Part shown: piece by piece, positions 16,713 to 63,151 of the stretch
How the letters are laid out: each line of letters opens with the position of its first letter
How positions within the stretch are numbered: position 1 is the stretch's first letter
NCBI RefSeq assembly: GCF_009740285.1
Contig: NZ_CP046566.1
Location: forward strand, 2,228,501-2,292,500
Source: Phnomibacter ginsenosidimutans
GTDB lineage: Bacteria; Bacteroidota; Bacteroidia; Chitinophagales; Chitinophagaceae
Reading direction: 5' to 3'
DNA length: 64,000 bases
The notes under the pieces: generated by a model
Told to the model about the DNA's origin: nothing
What the model saw: the letters and a program-made list of their open reading frames with translations, nothing else
Databases searched by the model: none
Position numbers and translations under genes: made by a program

Positions 16713-18997
16713 TTACCATTTTTCTGCAGAACGATTTTCGGGCTTACTACCCCAAGTGGTGGGCTTACTACCAAACTGAATTTCCAACACACCACCGTTT
16801 GCAATCATGGCATGGGTGATATAATTTTTTGAGTACAGTTTACCGTTCCAGCGAACATTTTGTATGTATTGATCTTCGGCACTTTTTTTACTGCACCGAA
16901 TAGAAAAACTTTTCCCAGCCGGCAGTTGAATATCAATGGAATCAAATAAAGGTGCACACAACATGTATTCAGCATTCACCGGATTAAGCGGATAAAACCC
17001 CATGGCGGCAAACACATACCAGGCACTCATTTGCCCTGCATCATCATTGCCACTTAGTCCACCGGCACCATCGCTGTACTCAGTCAATAAGATATCACGT
17101 ACATGCAGTTGTGTTTTCCAGGGCGAAGCCGTGAAATTGTACATAAACGGAATTTGATGGCCGGGTTCGTTGCCATGCCAATATTCAGCTTTGGTAAACA
17201 AACTATCTAAAGCGCTTTCCAATGCAGCAGAACCGCCCATTAGCGTGGCAAGGTCTTGCACGGCATGCGGTACATAAAAGCTGTACTGCCTTGCTGTGCC
17301 TTCTGTAATAAACGGCAATCGTACATCTGGTTGAAATGGTTGATACCAACTGCCATTGGCGTATCGGCCATTCATCATGCCTACCTGCTTATCAAAAACA
17401 TTTCTATAATTGCTGGCACTCTTTTGTAGTTGTGCTGCATCTTTTTGAAAGCCCAACTGCTTTGCAATAGTAGCTAATGCATAATCATCGAAAGCATATT
17501 CCAAGGTGCGGCTCACTTGCTCTTTTTGTGAAATGCGATGGGCACACTGTCTTCCATTGGAATGTAGTCATACCTAAGCCAGGAATCCATGGCACGTCGG
17601 CCAACACCATTTACATAAGACAAACTATCGGCTACTTCAAAAGCATTGCGCCGCATGTAGCCGTATGCTTTTAGTACATCATAATTGCGTAGGCCCCGGT
17701 TATATGCCGATGCAATAAATGCAGTTACATGATCGCCAATCATGGCACTGGTATAACTATTCCAGCAAGGAAAAATAGGCAACCATTTGCCTTGTTCTGC
17801 TTTCAAAATCATGGAGCGGACAAAGCTGTTTGTCAATGATGTATCCACAATACTCAACAGCGGTAGTTGTGCCCGGTAAATATCCCACATCGAAAAATCG
17901 TCGTAGTAATTGCCCTGTTGCAACTGCATTACTTCTCCATTGCCCGAAAATTTCGGATAAGCTCCATTCTCATCATTCATTAAGCGGGGCTGCTGAAAAC
18001 TATGGTACAACGAAGTATAAAATATCCGCTTCCATTGTTCATTGCTGGTTGTCACCCGAATGGTGCCCAAAGCCTGCTGCCACTCAGCAGCGGCTTGTTG
18101 TTGAATGCTTGCCCACGAAGCAGTGCCAATTTCAGCCTGTAAGTTTTGCCGGGCATTTTCAATGCTGGTAAAAGAGGTACCCATGCGAAGCGTAACCCTT
18201 TCGCCTTTACGCAAATGATAACCCACAAAAACACCCATTCCTTTTACCTCATGAACTGATGCATTGAAGAATATTTTTTCCTGTACAAAAGAACCTGCTA
18301 CGCCAGGCGCTATGTCTGTCGATGCATACATCCATCCGCTAAAACCGGCAGGCTTACCCCATCCCTGATAAATGCGGTGCACATCGTTTCGCCCCTGCAT
18401 GGTTCCTGTGGTTGCATCTACACTGGCAAAGCCTTTTGCATAATCCGTATTTGGAATCAACAAGAGGTACAAACTATCATCTTGCAACATGGTAAATTCC
18501 ATAATGCCAGCCCGGAGTGTACCTGTCAATGCAGCAGCATAACTCTGTGTACGTATGTTGTATTGTGTTGGGTCCGATTGTTCACTGGCATGCTCAAGAG
18601 GAGTAGCATATGCTGCTGCTGTTGTCCGCAGTTTGCCTACTACCGGCACTATAGTAAAGCTGCCATAATCTTGCATGCAGGAGCCACTAATCCAGTGCGT
18701 TGCCCGAAAGCCCGTAAGTTGCTGATCGGTGTAGAGATAAGGTGGAATACACTTGGTTTCTGTGGTACGAGTTTCAGGTACCCACTGTGTCATGCCAAAG
18801 GGCCAACCCACCGCAGGAATGGTGTTGGCATTCTTTTCGGTACCACCAGCTTCGCTGTGTTTTACAGCAGCAGGTGTAGTGGCTGGCGCAGTGCCCGCCA
18901 TGGGTTGCACATATTGCCACAATGGTTGTGCTACTGCTTGCCGGCAAAGCAGCAACAGCACAACAACAAAAGGCTTGGCCAACAATTTGCTCCGCAT
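16713..18997 (-). CDS. GH92 family alpha-mannosidase, frame broken near 17524
   Basis: Calcium-dependent exo-acting alpha-mannosidase of GH92, secreted (signal peptide LLAKPFVVVLLLLCRQAVAQ). Family hallmarks include YVQPMAGTA near the mature N-terminus, AVGWPFGMTQWVPET, FRATHWISGSCMQDYG, the FSMWDIYRAQLPLL segment, SRTLEYAFDDYALA, and the catalytic region GLSGNDDAGQMSAWYVFAAM. The first part ends FHKKSK-stop; the second resumes SRTLEYAF one frame away. Adding one A to the AAAAA run at about 17524 gives FHKKEQVSRTLEY and a 761-residue protein of normal GH92 length. I regard it as intact in the organism. Middle gene of the GH97-GH92-GH28 operon, 8 bases after GH97. Confidence 0.88.
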
Positions 18998-26057: not shown

Positions 26058-27529
26058 ATGAAAGTATTACAAAACTATATCAACGGTGCCTGGGTAAGCA
26101 GCCAATGCAGTAGCACAAAGCCCGTGGTAAACCCCGCCAATGGCGAAGTGCTGGCACAGGTGCCCTACGGCGATGCAACCATACAAGACGTAGCCAGTGC
26201 TGTGGCAGCAGCGCAGGCCGCTTACGAAGAATGGAAGCGGGTGCCGGTACTCCGTCGCATACAACCATTGTACAAACTCAAGCAACTGCTGGAAGAAAAT
26301 ACCGATGAGATAGCCCGGCTGATTACGCTGGAATGCGGTAAAACATTGGCCGAATCAAAAGGTGAATTGCAAAGAGCTATCGAAAATGTAGAAGTGGCTT
26401 GCGGTGCCCCAATGCTCATGCAAAGTGAGTTTTTGGAAAACATCGCATCAGGTATTGATGAATACATGATTCGTCAGCCGTTGGGCGTAACGGCATGCAT
26501 TGCGCCGTTTAATTTTCCTGCCATGATTTCTTTTTGGTTTTACCCTATGCCATTGCCACCGGCAATAGCATGATTGTGAAGCCATCAGAAAAAGTGCCAC
26601 TCACCATGATGAAAATATTTGAGTTAGTCCATCAGTTGGATTTGCCCAAAGGCTTACTAAACATGGTGCATGGTGGTAAAGAAAGTGTAGATGCTATTCT
26701 TGAACATCCGGATGTAAAGAGCATCAGTTTTGTAGGCAGTACGCCGGTGGCCAAATACATTTACGCCAAAGGAACTGCACATGGAAAAAGAGTGCAGGCA
26801 CAAGGTGGCGCTAAAAATCCCGTTATCATTTTACCGGATGCCGATGTGGACATGACCACACAAATTATTACCGATAGTGTGTATGGTTGTGCGGGTCAGC
26901 GTTGCCTTGCAGCTTCAGTAATTATAACAGTAGAAGACAATGGCAATATGCGGGATGCTTTGTATGCAGCTGCGCAAAACAGAAAAACAGGATTTGGTTT
27001 GGAAGCCGGTGTAGAAATGGGCCCTGTGATTACACCAGAAAGCAAACAACGCATAGAAGACTTGATAGCACTGGGTGAAAAAGAAGGGGGCTCTCTCCTG
27101 CTCGATGGTCGTGGCACCAGCATCAGCAACTTCGAGCAAGGCAATTTTCTTCGTCCTTCCATCATTGAAAATTTGCCCTTGCAAAGCAGCCTCATGAAAA
27201 CAGAAATCTTTGGTCCGGTGATGACATTGTTGAGCATGAAAACCATAGATGATGCCATTGCATTTGTAAATGGCAATAACTATGGCAACATGGCTTGCCT
27301 GTTTACCAGCAGTGGTAGCAGTGCCCGCAAATTCAGAAACGAAGCCATGGCGGGCAACATCGGCATCAACATTGGTGTGGCAGCACCTGTGGCTCAGTTT
27401 CCGTTTAGTGGTTGGAAAGAAAGTTTCTTTGGCGACCTGCACGGACAAGGCAAACATGCCATTGAATTTTTTACGCAAACCAAAGTGGTGGTAGAACGCT
27501 GGCCCAAAGAATGGACACGAAAATTTTAA
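26058..27529 (+). CDS. iolA: malonate/methylmalonate-semialdehyde dehydrogenase (CoA-acylating), frame broken near 26537
   Basis: Last step of inositol breakdown: malonate semialdehyde to acetyl-CoA (the same family, MmsA, also acts in valine breakdown). Aldehyde dehydrogenase fold with the N-terminal [10 protein letters not shown], cofactor site [11 protein letters not shown]...[16 protein letters not shown], and the catalytic cysteine in [12 protein letters not shown]. The frame breaks at about 26537. TGG TTT TAC CCT should read TGG TTT TTA CCC TAT, that is, one T is missing from a TTTT run. Repaired length is 490 residues, normal. It sits 25 bases after iolD and 10 before iolE. Confidence 0.9.
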
Positions 27530-50762: not shown

Positions 50763-52110
50763 TTATTTTCCGAAACCGGGTTGTAAAGAACCGGCAGCTT
50801 TCAGCAAATTGGCATAGGCCAATGTTGCATCTGCTTTGGCATTTACCTTGTTGAGGCGGGCCCGCAGCAAGCTCAAATCTGCATCCAGCAAATCGGTCAG
50901 CGTGGCCAAACCATTGTTGTATTTATTGTTGGTAATGCGGTAGTTTTCAGTAGCCTGTTCAATGGCTTTATCGTACACTTCTGTTTTCTTTTGCATCAGC
51001 AATACAGCCTCGTAGGATTTATTTACTTCCAACCGAATTTTATCCTGCATCAAAGAAGTAGCCGCTTGCAACTCTTGTTGATTTGCCTGCAGTTCATTCA
51101 GCCTGGCTTTCGTTTTCCAAAGGCTACTGATATTGTACTTTACACCTACACCCACATTGAGTGCATGACTGATGGTAGCAATGTTTTGCAAGTGTGCCGA
51201 AAAGTAACCACCCGTGGCGGCTACCGATGGCAGCTGGCTGCCTTTTACCGCTTGCATACCGGCTTTAATGGATTGCTGTCGCTGGCCATAAGCAGCCAGT
51301 TCATTGCGGTGCAGCATGGCCGAATCTTCCCATGCAGACAAGATGCCTGCAGTAGGTGTTTGTTCAAAAGCAGCCGCTTCTACCAGCAGTTCAGTTTGCT
51401 CTGGCAGACCCAACATCAGGCACATATTTACGCTGGCATCTTTCAGGTTATTTTGTGCTTCGAGCAATGCCAGCTCCACATTCGATGCTTGCAAACTGGC
51501 TCGCATTAAATCGTTGCGGGCCAGCAAACCGTTTTTTTCCAGGTTGGTAAAATCCTTCACCCGCTTGCTGCTCATCTTTAAGGCTTTCTTCAATGAGTTT
51601 TACCGTTTGTGCCGCCTTGTACAAATTGATGTACGCCGCAATACTGTTTTGAATAACAGCCTGCTGATTGACTGTAGCATCGAGCCTTGCTGCTTCCACC
51701 AAATACTCGGCTGAAGCAATACCATAGCGAATTTGGCCGTCGGCATAAATGGGCACCGATGCATTGAGCATGCCAATGAGTGCTGTATTTACTTTCAACG
51801 ATGCATTGGTTGAGGGTGGCGGCTGACCATTTCCTGTTGCAATTTTCGGATCTAAGCCGGGTTGGTTCAGCAGTAAAAAACTGGTGCTGGCACTAAGCTC
51901 CGGCAATTTCTTTTCTTCGGCCTGCTGCACTCTGGCAATGGCAGCATCAATTTTGGCCTTGTCCATTAGCAACAGTTGGTTGTGTTGCAGAGTCATTTGA
52001 ATGGCTTCGGATAAAGTGAGTTGCTTGCTGTTTTGCTGTGCTATCGACAACACAGGCAGCAGCATCAACAATACCCAAAGGATGTTGTGATTGCTTGTCT
52101 TGGGATTCAT
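50763..52110 (-). CDS. TolC family outer-membrane efflux protein, frame broken near 51564
   Basis: Outer-membrane duct of the pump. Signal peptide (ILWVLLMLLPVLSIAQ), then the first TolC repeat (LTLSEAIQMTLQHNQLLLMD). After the break, the helical part LEKNGLLARNDLMRASLQAS leads to the second repeat, ending NLLKAAGSLQPGF. The frame shifts at about 51564: LIEESLKDEQQ continues as VKDFTNLEKNG one frame away. Dropping one G from the GGG run (or the nearby single G) gives 448 residues, normal for the family. It starts within the TetR stop (ATGA overlap). Confidence 0.88.
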
Positions 52111-56324: not shown

Positions 56325-57899
56325 TTACTGCGGCGTCCATTGATACACGGCTGCAGCTGTATTATCTTGCGGATGCAATAAATGAATATTGGCTTGTTGC
56401 TGCTGCAGCATGCTTTGCACCTGTGCAAATGCTGCTGCATTTCTACGCTGCACAGTTAGTGAAGGGTGTACAAAATCATCGGTCAAATAAATTTTACCGC
56501 CATGCTGATGCACTTGCTTAGCAGCCAGCATGGCTTGCTGAAATTGTTGCTCACCTGTAAAAACTTTTGCTGCACCATAGTACAACAAATAGCGAACTGC
56601 ACTGGCACTGCCCAAAGAAATAACCATGTCATTTGCCGTGGCATTTTTTATCAGCCAAGCCGATTGAAAACGGGTGTAATCTTCATCTTCTTTTTGAATA
56701 AAAAGATAGCCACCAACAATATTGTGCAGGCACAAAACAAACACCAACACATACAAGAGTCGTTTGCTGGCATGCAAAACAATCAATGGAAAGAAATAGA
56801 TACCCAACACAGCAAATAAAGCAGGTTGAATCATGAGCCACGGTTCGGGAGAGCCGGGATCCACAATGAGCAATGCGGCGCTGTAAACGACCAACCACAA
56901 TACAAACGGATTTTTCCAAAAGCCCTGAAAGAAAATGCTGCTGCGAATTTTCCATAGCGCAAACAATGCCAGCATAATGAACAATACAGCTGTACAAACA
57001 GCAAGTATGGCCAACGATGTATGATGTTGTGCAGCAAATACTTCTTCTACCAATAGTTTTCCAGGAAACCATTGTTCTATTAAGCTCACCACCGCCGGGA
57101 ATGCGTAGATATAATTCAAACTCACCACATTGGATGCAACGACTGGCACTGCATTCAACGGGTGCCCTCCCGCCATTTGGATGCCACTATTACAATACGT
57201 CCAAAAAGTTGTATCAACTTCACTTGCGTAAAAAGCCATTGCATAACCAGATACTACCAGCAAAACAACCATTGCAGCCCATGAGCAAATTTTCAAAACG
57301 GAAGTTCGCAGCACGATCATATACAGCGGAATAGCAATGCATGTAACAACCCCCGCAGGCTTATACCACATCACAGTTACCCCACACAACAAGGCTGTTA
57401 ATGCAAGGTACTTTCCTTGCTGCGCATTGGTAATACTTGCACAGGCAGCATAAACCGATAATAAACAAAGCAACAAGGCTATGCCATATACTTCCGCTTC
57501 AACTGCATAGCGCCAATAGCCGTAACTCAATAACAAAAAAGCGGCACTGCAAAATGCTACAATATGACTTGTATTGAAATGTTGGCGTAGTAACCGATAC
57601 AACAATAAAACACTGGCAATAGATGCCACGCTACTGCACACACACATCAATTGGTAAGCATCTGCTTGAGGATTTATCCATTGTACAATATTCAATAAGG
57701 CTTTAAAAAAAGGTAAGAATATCAGGTATCGGGGCAGCCACAATTGTGCATAATCATAGGTCCGAATGGCGTAGGCATAAAAATAGCCATCATCATTTTC
57801 ACTTCTATTGCCAGGGAAACTCAAGATTAGCAATAAGAAAAGCAACAAAAACATGCCTGCGTATCGCAACGATGATGATGACTGAAAACCGGGCTTCAT
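56325..57899 (-). CDS. multi-span membrane protein, glycosyltransferase-39/O-mannosyltransferase-like
   Basis: 524 residues from MKPGFQSSSSLRYAGMFLLL, with about 11 hydrophobic segments and a soluble C-terminal region (WLIKNATANDMVISLGSAS, GGKIYLTDDF). The short acidic loop after the first span, RSENDDGYFYAYAIRTYDY, resembles the conserved Asp/Glu loop of GT-C enzymes, which use lipid-linked sugars. I cannot fix a donor or acceptor. Convergent with the aminotransferase gene. Confidence 0.6.
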   Translation of the reverse strand: MKPGFQSSSSLRYAGMFLLLFLLLILSFPGNRSENDDGYFYAYAIRTYDYAQLWLPRYLIFLPFFKALLNIVQWINPQADAYQLMCVCSSVASIASVLLLYRLLRQHFNTSHIVAFCSAAFLLLSYGYWRYAVEAEVYGIALLLCLLSVYAACASITNAQQGKYLALTALLCGVTVMWYKPAGVVTCIAIPLYMIVLRTSVLKICSWAAMVVLLVVSGYAMAFYASEVDTTFWTYCNSGIQMAGGHPLNAVPVVASNVVSLNYIYAFPAVVSLIEQWFPGKLLVEEVFAAQHHTSLAILAVCTAVLFIMLALFALWKIRSSIFFQGFWKNPFVLWLVVYSAALLIVDPGSPEPWLMIQPALFAVLGIYFFPLIVLHASKRLLYVLVFVLCLHNIVGGYLFIQKEDEDYTRFQSAWLIKNATANDMVISLGSASAVRYLLYYGAAKVFTGEQQFQQAMLAAKQVHQHGGKIYLTDDFVHPSLTVQRRNAAAFAQVQSMLQQQQANIHLLHPQDNTAAAVYQWTPQ

Positions 57900-57949
57900 G
57901 ATTGGGTGTGATGTTTTGTTGTAGGGGCTTATTTCTGTAAAATACAACC

Positions 57950-57996
57950 AAAAAACAAAGCGGCTTAAAAAACTATTCGTTTTTTAAGCCGCTTTG
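57950..57996 (-). terminator. strong terminator after the PKD-esterase gene
   Basis: An 18-base perfect stem, CAAAGCGGCTTAAAAAAC / GTTTTTTAAGCCGCTTTG, with loop TATTC, followed on the minus strand by TTTTTTGG. It lies 17 bases past the stop of the large secreted protein. Confidence 0.88.
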
Positions 57997-58013
57997 AAAA
58001 ATTGGAGTATGAT

Positions 58014-61000
58014 TTACCTGAAAGTTTTCATCAATTGTCGTTGAACAATTACGCCATTTGCTTCGAGCACCAACCAGTAGTTTCCAGCAGGCAAAGCAAT
58101 TGTATTCAGATTATACTGCAACGTGGTTTGCCATTTTTCCAATACCTGCATTTGTACCTGCAGCCCACGGGCATCTAACAATTTCAGCGTCACTTTTCCT
58201 CTGTAAGGGTTTGTCCAACTGAGGAGTGTAGTATTGCCATGCATAGGGTTTGGATATACCGTTAACCCTTTAGCACCAACGCTTGTCGATGTAGAGGTAG
58301 TCACTTCCACATCTCTAACCACAGGTAGTGTGTTTTGCACAGGCGTGGCTTGTGTGGCTGTAGAAGGACTTACTTCCGTTATCGTCAATCCATTAATGTA
58401 GTTGTAGGTATTTACCCTGGCAATGGCAATGGCAATTGACCCATTGGTTGCGGATAAATTGGTAAAGGAAACTGCATTGGTTTTGTTGTTATCCGTCACT
58501 ACGGTTTGTGCTACTCCATTAATAGTAAACCTGGTGCTATTACCTGTATTGCTTCGGCTGGCATACAATTCGATATTGTAAGTTTTAACGGCACTCAAAC
58601 CATTCAAGGTGAGCGTTCTGTTGCTAGTAGCATAACTGGTATACCTCAGCACTGCCGGAGGACACATAGTACCACCAAAACTTGCACCGTTGTCAGAAAC
58701 TGCTTCACTGTAAGAGAGTGTGGCAGATACCGTGCTCACAGCACCATCTGCGTAATTGAAAGCTGCAGAAGAACGGTTCGTAATTTTGGAACCACCAACA
58801 TTCCAGTTGTTCCAGCCTTCTGTGGTTTGAGGGTTCGTTCCACCAAACAGGTTTATTTTAATCTGCCTTGTTGTGGTAGTGGGCTGTGCATTTACTGTAA
58901 TCCAAATTGAATCGGTTCCGGTTGCGCCACGGTCATCAACGGCTGTTAACCGGAACAAATAACTTCCTTCAACGAGGTTGTTCACGGCTGTGCTATTAGT
59001 GCTTGCAGAAACAATCGTTGCAGCAGTTGGTCCTGCTTGTTGTGTCCACAAAATACTTTGTAAATTACTTTCAGCGTCAACAACTGAACCATTCAATACA
59101 ACACTATTGGTGGGCAAAGTAATGCTGGTATTATTTCCGGCATCTACCACTGGAGCTTGTATTGGGCCTTGGATTTACCTGCACAGCTACAATATCTGTA
59201 GCTGTAGCTGCAGAGTCATCCGTTACAGTCAACTCAAACAAATAACTACCTTCTATCAATCCGGAAACTATTGGAGAAGCAAGCGTATTGTTATTGAAAA
59301 AAGCAGTAGCAGGTCCCGCTACCTGACGCCATGCATAATTAGTAATTACACCATCGGTGTCGTTTCCAACACCATGCAATGTCAGGCTGTTGGCAGGTAA
59401 TACAAGTGTTGTATCATTTCCGGCATTGGCGGTGGGAGGTTCGTTTGGTCCTCGTTTCACCAGCACCAATACACTATCTCTGCTCACTCCGCCTACATTA
59501 TCTGTTGCCATCAATTCAAACTGATAACTGCCAATATGCAATCCTGAAACTGTTGTTTGCAATGTGTTGGCTGATACTATAACAGCATTTGATGGCCCAG
59601 CTAACTGTCGCCATTGCACAGCAGTTATGGAACCGTCATTATCGATGGCAGTACCCGATAGCAACACAGTATTTTCAGGTATGGTAATGGATTGATCCTG
59701 ACCAGCATTTACAACAGGTAACAAGTTTGCAACAGTACAAGCATCATCCAGAATTCGTTTACCTACTACTCTGGTATACAACAAGTGATGGCCCATGTCA
59801 TTTACATGCACCCCATCAACATTGTAAGCGTCTACAATGGTTCCGTCATCATTTGCAAGAGTTGTCCAAAAGTCAATGGCTTTGTTTCCAAACCGCTGAT
59901 AAGTCCAGTCTCGCATCAGCATCAGGTTATTGCGTTGAGTAGTATTTAACGCTGTTCGGGGTTGTGTAGTGGTTACCCAAACTGTAATGCCGGCTGCATC
60001 CGTCAATGCAAGTGTTCTTTCGTAATTCGCTTGTTGTTCTGCCAAAGTGTAGTTCAATGCCACATCATTGCTAGGTAAATTGATAATGATGATGTCGGGA
60101 TTGTATGTCAATGCCTTGGTGATATTGCGCAATGTATCCGGTACGGGTCTTCCTTCGGGCGGTACAAACCCATGAGGGTTGAGTAAATGATAGGTAGTAC
60201 GACTTGAGGTAGCAATATTGATCACCTCATTTGCAGGATTAAAACTGCGAACGTATTTTCTGAATTTGCTCACCCAGTTACTATCGGGCACACTGGCACC
60301 GGTACCCATTGCCGTGCTAGAGCCCATCACCACAAAGCGAAGCTGTTTACCGCAATTCAAGGAGTCAATAATAGATGGCGGTGCAAATGGATTGTCACCA
60401 ATCAACACATACACAGAATCCTTACCGATAAGTCCATCATTATCCGTTACGGTGAGTTCAAATCCGTACCTGCCGGTTTGTGGATTTTCTACCGTGGCAA
60501 TGGCCTGATTCGCATTGACCAGGAAACTACCAGCAGGACCATCAAATTGCTCCCAATGATAACTCACAATACTACCATCAATATCTGCGGAAGCAGTTCC
60601 GTTCAATGTAAATACATCCAAGGGTAAGCGCAGGGTTGTATCCACGCCGGCATTGGCCACTGGGGCCAACGGATCCGGCGGAAATACATTCACCACAACA
60701 GTATCTAAAGCTGCAGCACCGCTGTTGTCAGTTACCATCAACTGCATTTCGTAAGTGCCTGCTTCAAGATTACTGATTACAGGATTCACGATGTTTGGAT
60801 TGCTGATAGTTAATGATGCTGGTCCTGAAATTTTAGACCATGCAAAAGCCACAATAGAACCATCCTGATCGTATGATGCCGACGCATTTAAGTTCACAAC
60901 ATTATTGGGTAATGCAATATTGACATCTGCACCAGCATTCGCCACAGGCGCAACATTGCCTGTTACAGCTGTTGTTTCTGTGAGCATAAATCCATTGAGG

Positions 61001-63151
61001 TAACTGTAGGTATTTACCCTGGCCACAGTTACAACAATACTACCGGTGGAAGTTGTAAGATTATTGAAAACAACTTTGTTGGTTTTGTTATTATCCGTCA
61101 CCACGGTTTGGCTAACTCCGTTGATGGTAAAGCGGGTACTGTTGCCTGTATTGTTTCTACTGGCGTAGAATTCAAGTGAATAGGTTTTGCCAGCCACCAA
61201 ACCATTAATGGTAAGAGTACGTGAAATGGTAGCATAGCTGGTATAACGGAGCACTGCTGGTGGACACATAGTACCACCAAAACTTGCACCATTATCCGAC
61301 ACGGCTTCACTATAAGAAAGGTTGGCAGTAACTGTGCTGACGGTACCGTCTGCGTAATTCAAGGCTCCGGAAAGTCGGTTGCTCACTTTTGATCCGCCAA
61401 CATTCCAGTTGTTCCAACCTTCTGTGGTTTGTGGGTTTGAACCGCCAAACAAATTCACTTTTATCTGCTTGGTGATAACCGGCGGTGGCGCATTTACCAT
61501 TACCCGAATCGTATCCAATGCCACAGCGGCACTGTCGTCTGTTACCTTCAATTCAAAGCGATAACTACCCTGCATCAAATTGCTGATGCCGGTTTGAACA
61601 TTTCCTGCGTTGGCAATGCTGGCTTGCTGCAGGACCTTCTATTTGGCGCCATTGGTACTGCACAATGCTACCATCTGCATCCGTTGAGCCACTTCCATTG
61701 AGCGTAGTAGTATTGGTGGGCAATGTCAACACCTGATCAGCACCGGCATTGGCTACCGGAGCAAGGTTTGGATTCAGGTTTACAACGGTAATCAATACCC
61801 GGTCTTTGCTTACGCCACCCTCATTATCAGTTACAGTAAGTTCCATTTCATAAATGCCTTTGCGTAGCAAACTCAATTGAGGCGTAGCTGTAGTAGCACC
61901 GCTTATGGCAAATGAAGTGGGCCCTGCAATTTTCGCCCATTGATAAGACACAACCACCCCATCATTATCACTTGAATTGGTACCGTTTAATGTGTAAGTA
62001 CTGGCCGGATATTCAATGCTGTCATCTGCTCCTGCATTGGCTTGCGGCAGCTGATTAGGATTGGGATTCGTCACCACTATCCTTACTGTGTCTCTATCAA
62101 ACAAACCAGCCGCATCGGTTACCGTAAGCATGAAATTGTAAGTGCCGGCAACAAAACCATTTACGCTTGTACTTACTGCATTGGGTGTTGTAATGGTTTG
62201 ACTACCCGGACCATTCAACTTTTGCCAATTGTAAGTCAGCGTACTGCCTTCCGGGTCGGTAGATCCGCTGGCATTGAGCGAAACTGAGGTAACAGGCAAG
62301 CTGATAGCCTGATCGGCACCAGCGTTGGCATCGGGCGGGTAATTGCGCCGGTAACGCAACATCCATTCATATATATTGTAGCCACCTACCCTATAGTTGG
62401 GATTGCTGGCATACAAACCACTGTTCACATGCGTTACGCCATCAAAGCGGGTAAGAATAGCAGGGATGGATGGATTGTAACTATTGATTTTGTTGACCAA
62501 ACTTACAGACCACGACACCGGCGATGACTGATCGGCATTACTATGCAATCCCCAAAATGGCAAGGCTGTATTGGCGATGTTATTGGCACCAGCATCGGTG
62601 TATGGATTGATGTAAGGCGCAATCGTAACCATACCGGCTATGCGGTTGGCATTGGTACTACTGTTGGTAGCGTACTTAATAATTTGATCGCCGCCCATGC
62701 TGTAGCCCATCAGGTATATGCGGCCGGCATCAATTTTATAGGGCTGTGCCAATAAATAATTGATAAGGCTATTGATATCACTCACAGAAGCATAGTCTTT
62801 CCACTGAGGACTGATAACGATGAATGAACTGGTTTGGCCATTCACTGTAAAGCTGGAAGGAAACTGATTGTTGTTGATGTAATACGCAGCATTTTCCCGC
62901 AGCACTTCATTCAGTTCAGTGGTGCCATTGCCATAACTGCCTGCTCCATGAAAACTAATCAGCAAGGGAAACTTTTGCGTACTGGCTGCATAACCTGTGG
63001 GCAGGTATTCGTAAAAGCCGCCACAATTGGCATTCACATTTACATTTCGGGGAAGGTGTGTTTGTGCTGCCACATATTGCATATTCATGCAGAGTAGCAT
63101 GAACAACAACACAATACGGCAACTAAAAAACAGGGTGTTTTTTTGCTTCAT
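58014..63151 (-). CDS. giant T9SS-secreted protein with two esterase domains, PKD repeats and malectin-like modules; frame broken near 59145 and 61620
   Basis: About 1,711 residues once two single-base gains are removed. Order: signal peptide; alpha/beta-hydrolase esterase (PLLISFHGAGSYGNG, nucleophile in YLMGYSMGGDQ, FDGVTHVNSGLY with the putative His); three PKD-like repeats (each opening NAGADxxIxLP); malectin-like module; two PKD repeats; SGNH/GDSL hydrolase (VVMGSSTAMGTG, NLPSNDVAL, NVDGVHVNDMGHH); three PKD repeats; second malectin-like module; type IX C-terminal sorting domain (LTVYPNPMHGNTTLLSW ... LKTFR-like end). Breaks: GGPAAS|SIANAGNV-type junction near 61620 and RPIQAPVVDAG near 59145. 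It is surely secreted to the surface, and likely removes acyl groups from a polysaccharide. Monocistronic with its own terminator. Confidence 0.88.
58374..58865 (-). repeat. malectin-like module, copy B
   Basis: About 164 residues (INLFGGTNPQTTEGWNNWNV to NTYNYINGLTITE), closely similar to copy A at 60976-61467. The central stretch ASFGGTMCPPAVLRYTSYAT is identical. Arises from internal duplication within the gene. Confidence 0.85.
60976..61467 (-). repeat. malectin-like module, copy A
   Basis: About 164 residues (VNLFGGSNPQTTEGWNNWNV to NTYSYLNGFMLTE). Shares long identical stretches with copy B, for example TRFTINGV and VVTDNNKTN. Probably binds carbohydrate. Confidence 0.85.

Follow-up and report, generated by a model that had tools for sequence, protein, structure and literature searches.

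Carbohydrate esterases of family CE6 have an SGNH-type fold, and those of family CE1 are alpha/beta-hydrolases. Members of the two families are found fused to each other. Previous studies showed that the CE6-CE1 fusions of Bacteroides ovatus and Flavobacterium johnsoniae possess acetyl and feruloyl esterase activity by assay, and that the linked domains of BoCE6-CE1 boost xylanase more than the separate domains do (PMC7110780). DmCE1B of Dysgonomonas mossii is a CE1-CE1 fusion, and CE6-CE1-CE1 proteins are present in PULDB according to annotation (PMC8040265).

Here, a gene of related design was analysed in a window of 64,000 nucleotides from Phnomibacter ginsenosidimutans (contig NZ_CP046566.1, positions 2,228,501 to 2,292,500). 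Like the CE6-CE1 proteins (PMC7110780), its product combines two esterase domains of different families with a signal peptide in one Bacteroidota chain. Unlike them, compact proteins with CE6 at the N-terminus and CE1 at the C-terminus that are encoded within xylan polysaccharide utilisation loci (PULs), it carries an N-terminal alpha/beta-hydrolase and a central GDSL_2-type SGNH domain on a scaffold of eight PKD repeats and two beta-sandwich modules, ends in a type IX tail, and lies outside any PUL. The domains and their order are thus different, carbohydrate genes are missing from the neighbourhood, and no CE6/SASA Pfam match was found in the chain. DmCE1B and the CE6-CE1-CE1 proteins (PMC8040265) likewise hold several carbohydrate esterase domains and a CBM per chain, but both domains of DmCE1B belong to one family, and it has CBM48 where the window protein has PKD and malectin-like modules. 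Since esterase fusions have already been characterised in Bacteroidota, the layout is not new in principle; if both domains are active, the working principle is the same, and the protein is set apart by its families, order, scaffold and export. Literature searches found no publication on a PKD-scaffolded, type IX-exported dual-esterase architecture. We consider it probable that the locus is one gene for a dual esterase of about 1,700 aa, which is exported through Sec and the type IX system and deacylates a polymer, likely a plant polysaccharide, at the cell surface, and that the two breaks in its reading frame are errors.

The gene lies on the minus strand (58014..63151, as do all its features given below) and is split here into three frames that overlap one another (528, 815 and 378 aa). 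From the N- to the C-terminus it encodes a signal peptide, the alpha/beta-hydrolase, three PKD repeats, a beta-sandwich module, two PKD repeats, the SGNH domain, three PKD repeats, a second beta-sandwich module and a sorting domain. The hydrophobic signal peptide (63062..63151, read from the translation by eye) ends in ...YVAAQ. K319L-like PKD repeats were matched by Pfam across all three frames (5.7e-58, 2.6e-86, and 2e-19). Repeats 1-3 (61495..62344) occupy three stretches of P0001, with the tail of the third, which crosses the first frame break, in P0002; repeats 4-5 (60406..60960), 6-7 (59173..59724), and 8 (58887..59144) follow. The C-terminal sorting domain (58026..58259) matches Por_Secre_tail (3.7e-8, above the Pfam cut-off) and TIGR04183 of NCBIfam (27.2 bits, cut-off 23). 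The same genome encodes SprA (2362 bits) and about 48 sorting-domain proteins, so that signal peptide, C-terminal sorting domain and secretion machinery, as expected of a type IX cargo, are all present. An earlier note on this DNA had described a single secreted protein in which two unrelated esterase folds are combined with eight PKD-like repeats, two malectin-like modules and a sorting domain of type IX; domain matches and intact single-frame orthologues bear out the single chain, and Pfam, NCBIfam and alignment give the same counts.

The alpha/beta-hydrolase domain (62330..63067, P0001 residues 29-274) matches Abhydrolase_2 at 6.8e-6, above the Pfam cut-off. Its nucleophile Ser151 in GYSMGG (62699..62701, alignment A6), acid Asp207 (62531..62533), and His241 (62429..62431) coincide with the family's triad in the alignment, with the G-x-S-x-G elbow, Asp and His in order. 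According to profile searches against the PDB, the nearest solved relatives are 4q82 (2e-39), the esterase 3doh, LC-Est1C (3wyd), and the feruloyl esterase 9j07 (1.5e-15); these chains lack an SGNH partner, and their substrates, where known, differ. The profile also matches the CE1 enzymes 7b5v (8e-9) and XynZ (3e-8), to which 4q82 and 3doh are preferred as closer relatives, as well as PHB-depolymerase-like esterases, PET hydrolases and cutinases. Two more paralogues with alpha/beta-hydrolase and PKD repeats, one of them with a beta-helix domain, are located elsewhere in the same genome (L025:8223-16246).

The SGNH/GDSL hydrolase domain (59719..60393) matches Lipase_GDSL_2 at 7.5e-12, also above the Pfam cut-off. 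In alignment A5, the block I Ser of GSST (60316..60318), the block III Asn of PSND (60067..60069), and the block V Asp and His of DGVH (59806..59817), numbered S26, N109, D193 and H196, are kept in every row that covers them. All four motifs named in the earlier note, GYSMGG included, were recovered within the Abhydrolase_2 and Lipase_GDSL_2 matches. At block II (60202..60204, A5 residue 64), Ser replaces the usual Gly in this protein and in three same-genus relatives, while most others have Gly. The predicted model (pLDDT 90) shows Z values of 17-22 to many solved SGNH enzymes. Its top structural neighbour is the SGNH acetyl xylan esterase PbeAcXE (7toh; PMC9105624; Z 21.9, 2.2 A over 186 residues), from which specificity is not transferable at 17% identity and whose solved chain has no alpha/beta-hydrolase partner; polyvinyl alcohol esterase 9kr1 is level with it (Z 21.7), and many SGNH lipases and esterases come next. 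SGNH membership stands by fold and by the other residues, and the backbone NH of the block II Ser could still serve the oxyanion hole.

The beta-sandwich module of about 172 residues is present in two copies, module 1 at 60961..61482 (alignment A4, model and fold comparison) and module 2 at 58365..58880, which is 75% identical to it. Pfam recorded no hit to it at E <= 1, and a search of PDB sequences returned nothing significant. Its model, of pLDDT 73 with weak stretches at residues 13-19 and 60-84, is nearest to B. subtilis YxiM in the latter's N-terminal domain (Z 9.7), followed by the plant receptors FERONIA and ANXUR, whose ectodomains are malectin-like (Z 8-9.2, FERONIA 9.2), and CBM61 (Z 8.0), values that are barely above the background stated by the comparison tool; CBM6 and CBM35 are prominent among the Foldseek matches. 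The malectin-like label proposed earlier is retained as a resemblance of fold; based on the model, 'CBM/malectin-like' appears to be a fair guess at the level of fold, with no family assigned.

Beyond this protein, members of the SGNH group were detected at 1e-30 in 52 of the 396 genomes of the family. Alpha/beta-hydrolase and SGNH domains share one frame in the same genus (G002, G003, G006) and in G031; G110 (L051); G124 and G251; G408; G069 (three proteins); and G409 and G416, so the family has seven genera or more with such a protein. In other relatives, named Chitinophaga species among them, the SGNH domain stands alone or with other modules; the beta-sandwich module accompanies alpha/beta-hydrolase and PKD without SGNH in five other genera (G073; G013 and G137; G128; G118; G069), and some alpha/beta-hydrolase relatives in the family are fused to beta-helix domains. 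The dual-domain protein L102:3890-8446 (G069) keeps its SGNH partner beside an alpha/beta-hydrolase without nucleophile Ser and His, and L103:5563-10338 (G409) combines an SGNH domain with two alpha/beta-hydrolases, the second of which has Ala in place of the nucleophile Ser. On contig 2 of G019, at least seven proteins with alpha/beta-hydrolase and PKD stand in tandem (374-398 kb; L028, L029), a lineage-specific expansion.

In the proposed mechanism, a protein of about 1,700 residues would leave the cell via Sec and then the type IX system; the N-terminal CE1/PHB-depolymerase-like alpha/beta-hydrolase and the central SGNH domain would act as independent serine esterases separated by PKD spacers; the two CBM/malectin-like modules would probably anchor the protein on an ester-decorated polymer; and both domains would strip acyl groups from it at the cell surface. 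We infer that both domains are active and that the polymer is a polysaccharide, most likely of the plant cell wall, such as acetylated glucuronoxylan or pectin. Which esters are cut is a guess, acetyl and feruloyl, both taken from one polysaccharide, being the pair suggested as an example in the earlier note. Several observations count against the proposal, namely the lack of adjoining carbohydrate genes and of GH10, the block II Ser, and the nucleophile-less relatives.

The last two bear on whether only one of the domains is an active esterase, with the other reduced to a binding role or a relic. The nucleophile-less domains of L102 and of L103 (second copy) indicate that the alpha/beta-hydrolase can decay while the chain persists, and the Gly-to-Ser change at block II in the genus could have lowered SGNH activity. 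Against this, the triad residues are complete in this protein and in three same-genus relatives. The two catalytic domains are also the most constrained parts of the protein, with dN/dS relative to G006 of ~0.05 (alpha/beta-hydrolase) and ~0.02 (SGNH), compared with ~0.07 and 0.15 for the whole frames after the breaks, estimates that are rough because synonymous sites are near saturation. A single active domain is thus unlikely, and two active esterases remain the preferred reading.

Regarding the substrate, the genes around the locus encode an aminotransferase, an efflux set, a homogentisate-dioxygenase-like protein, a 540-aa membrane protein and ribosomal L7/L12, and neighbour annotation revealed no PUL or carbohydrate genes adjoining the esterase gene. 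The window does contain a SusCD pair at 31.1-35.8 kb, as well as genes of GH28, GH92 and GH97 at 15-21 kb, all of them more than 20 kb away from the locus, and deriving the substrate from genomic context was dropped for these reasons. An Rfam search of the window returned no RNA family. The genome as a whole encodes about 20 SusD, seven GH43 above cut-off, four GH28 and one GH115, and no GH10 xylanase was found in it; with its GH43, GH28, GH115 and SusD complement, an acetylated or methylated plant polysaccharide is a plausible substrate. The fold neighbours include carbohydrate esterases, yet also lipases, thioesterases and polyvinyl alcohol esterase, and the shared fold leaves the substrate unfixed. 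A non-polysaccharide ester, such as PHB or another polyester, a cutin-like polymer, or lipids, would agree with the PHB-depolymerase-like, PET hydrolase and cutinase matches of the alpha/beta-hydrolase and with the equal nearness of the SGNH model to 9kr1. However, paired CBM-like modules, PKD repeats and export by the type IX system are usual features of proteins that act on polysaccharides, and alpha/beta-hydrolase relatives in the family are also fused to beta-helix domains, so we regard such a substrate as rather improbable and keep the polysaccharide as the preferred one.

Both frame breaks, placed approximately at 61620..61635 and 59153..59166 by comparison with intact relatives, sit in PKD repeats or linkers outside the catalytic domains, and each corresponds to a net difference of one base. 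The syntenic same-genus gene is a single open frame of 1,816 codons in G002 (JADLHL010000030.1) and 1,833 codons in G006 (JAIUNV010000005.1; 82% identical over the N-terminal frame), and the orthologue in G003 of the same genus is one open frame of 1,630 codons. Programmed frameshifting was ruled out, as the relatives are single-frame at both sites. Three other genes in the window are split in a similar way: GH92 (16716-18997; profile positions 1-193 in one frame and 201-463 in the next), an aldehyde dehydrogenase (26058-27529; profile positions 1-146 and 148-461), and a TolC-type outer membrane efflux gene (50766-52110), which is in two parts here and whole in G006. Breaks in scattered conserved genes of the window are likely leftover assembly errors. 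Given the intact syntenic frames, the selection past the breaks and the three other split genes, both breaks in the esterase gene are very probably sequencing or assembly errors rather than gene death, in line with the earlier expectation. That the breaks are real, leaving a recent pseudogene or only a truncated alpha/beta-hydrolase-PKD protein, is unlikely. In its favour, two of them fall in one gene of a single-contig genome of 99.4% completeness, and a gene lost very recently would show the same trace of selection; against it, purifying selection extends past both, the syntenic orthologues are intact, and three more conserved genes of the window are broken similarly. The suspicion that the breaks had hidden the architecture from annotation applies to this assembly only; the two public records cited above hold it intact.

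The history of the pairing was followed in two trees, one of 48 alpha/beta-hydrolases and one of 38 SGNH domains, the latter excluding truncated contigs. The dual proteins are not monophyletic, with five label changes in the alpha/beta-hydrolase tree and four in the SGNH tree, and a single SGNH clade of dual proteins was rejected (p-AU 5e-6). Their scatter over both trees indicates that the pairing had more than one origin or underwent repeated loss. The G031 protein is 54% identical to the window protein in the SGNH domain, but only 27% in the alpha/beta-hydrolase.

Beside the esterase gene, in the same genus, lies the gene of the multi-spanning 540-aa membrane protein (56328-57947), which has no Pfam or NCBIfam match. 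A conserved two-gene system, with this protein as a general partner, was ruled out, as it occurs in only 3 of the 102 genera sampled and most relatives of the esterase do not have it beside them. Compared with G006, dS is 1.4-2.9 for the esterase gene and 1.1 for the membrane protein gene, whereas it is 0.03-0.39 for genes downstream of the pair; on the opposite flank, ribosomal L7/L12 shares 99% identity. The pair (56328-63151) therefore forms a sharp island of divergence (dS >1) between similar flanks, which suggests that the two-gene block was replaced through homologous exchange with a distant strain.

More tentatively, it is possible that two esterases were joined repeatedly in this family, in type IX chains with interchangeable PKD and beta-sandwich scaffolds, under selection for simultaneous double deacylation of one polymer, and that the esterase gene and its neighbour were swapped between strains as a block. 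If the dual-esterase proposal is true, these proteins would provide a source of enzymes for biomass processing. As a second group of esterase fusions, unrelated to the known ones, with long PKD scaffolds and type IX export in many genera, they would also offer a natural comparison for why acyl-removing activities fuse.
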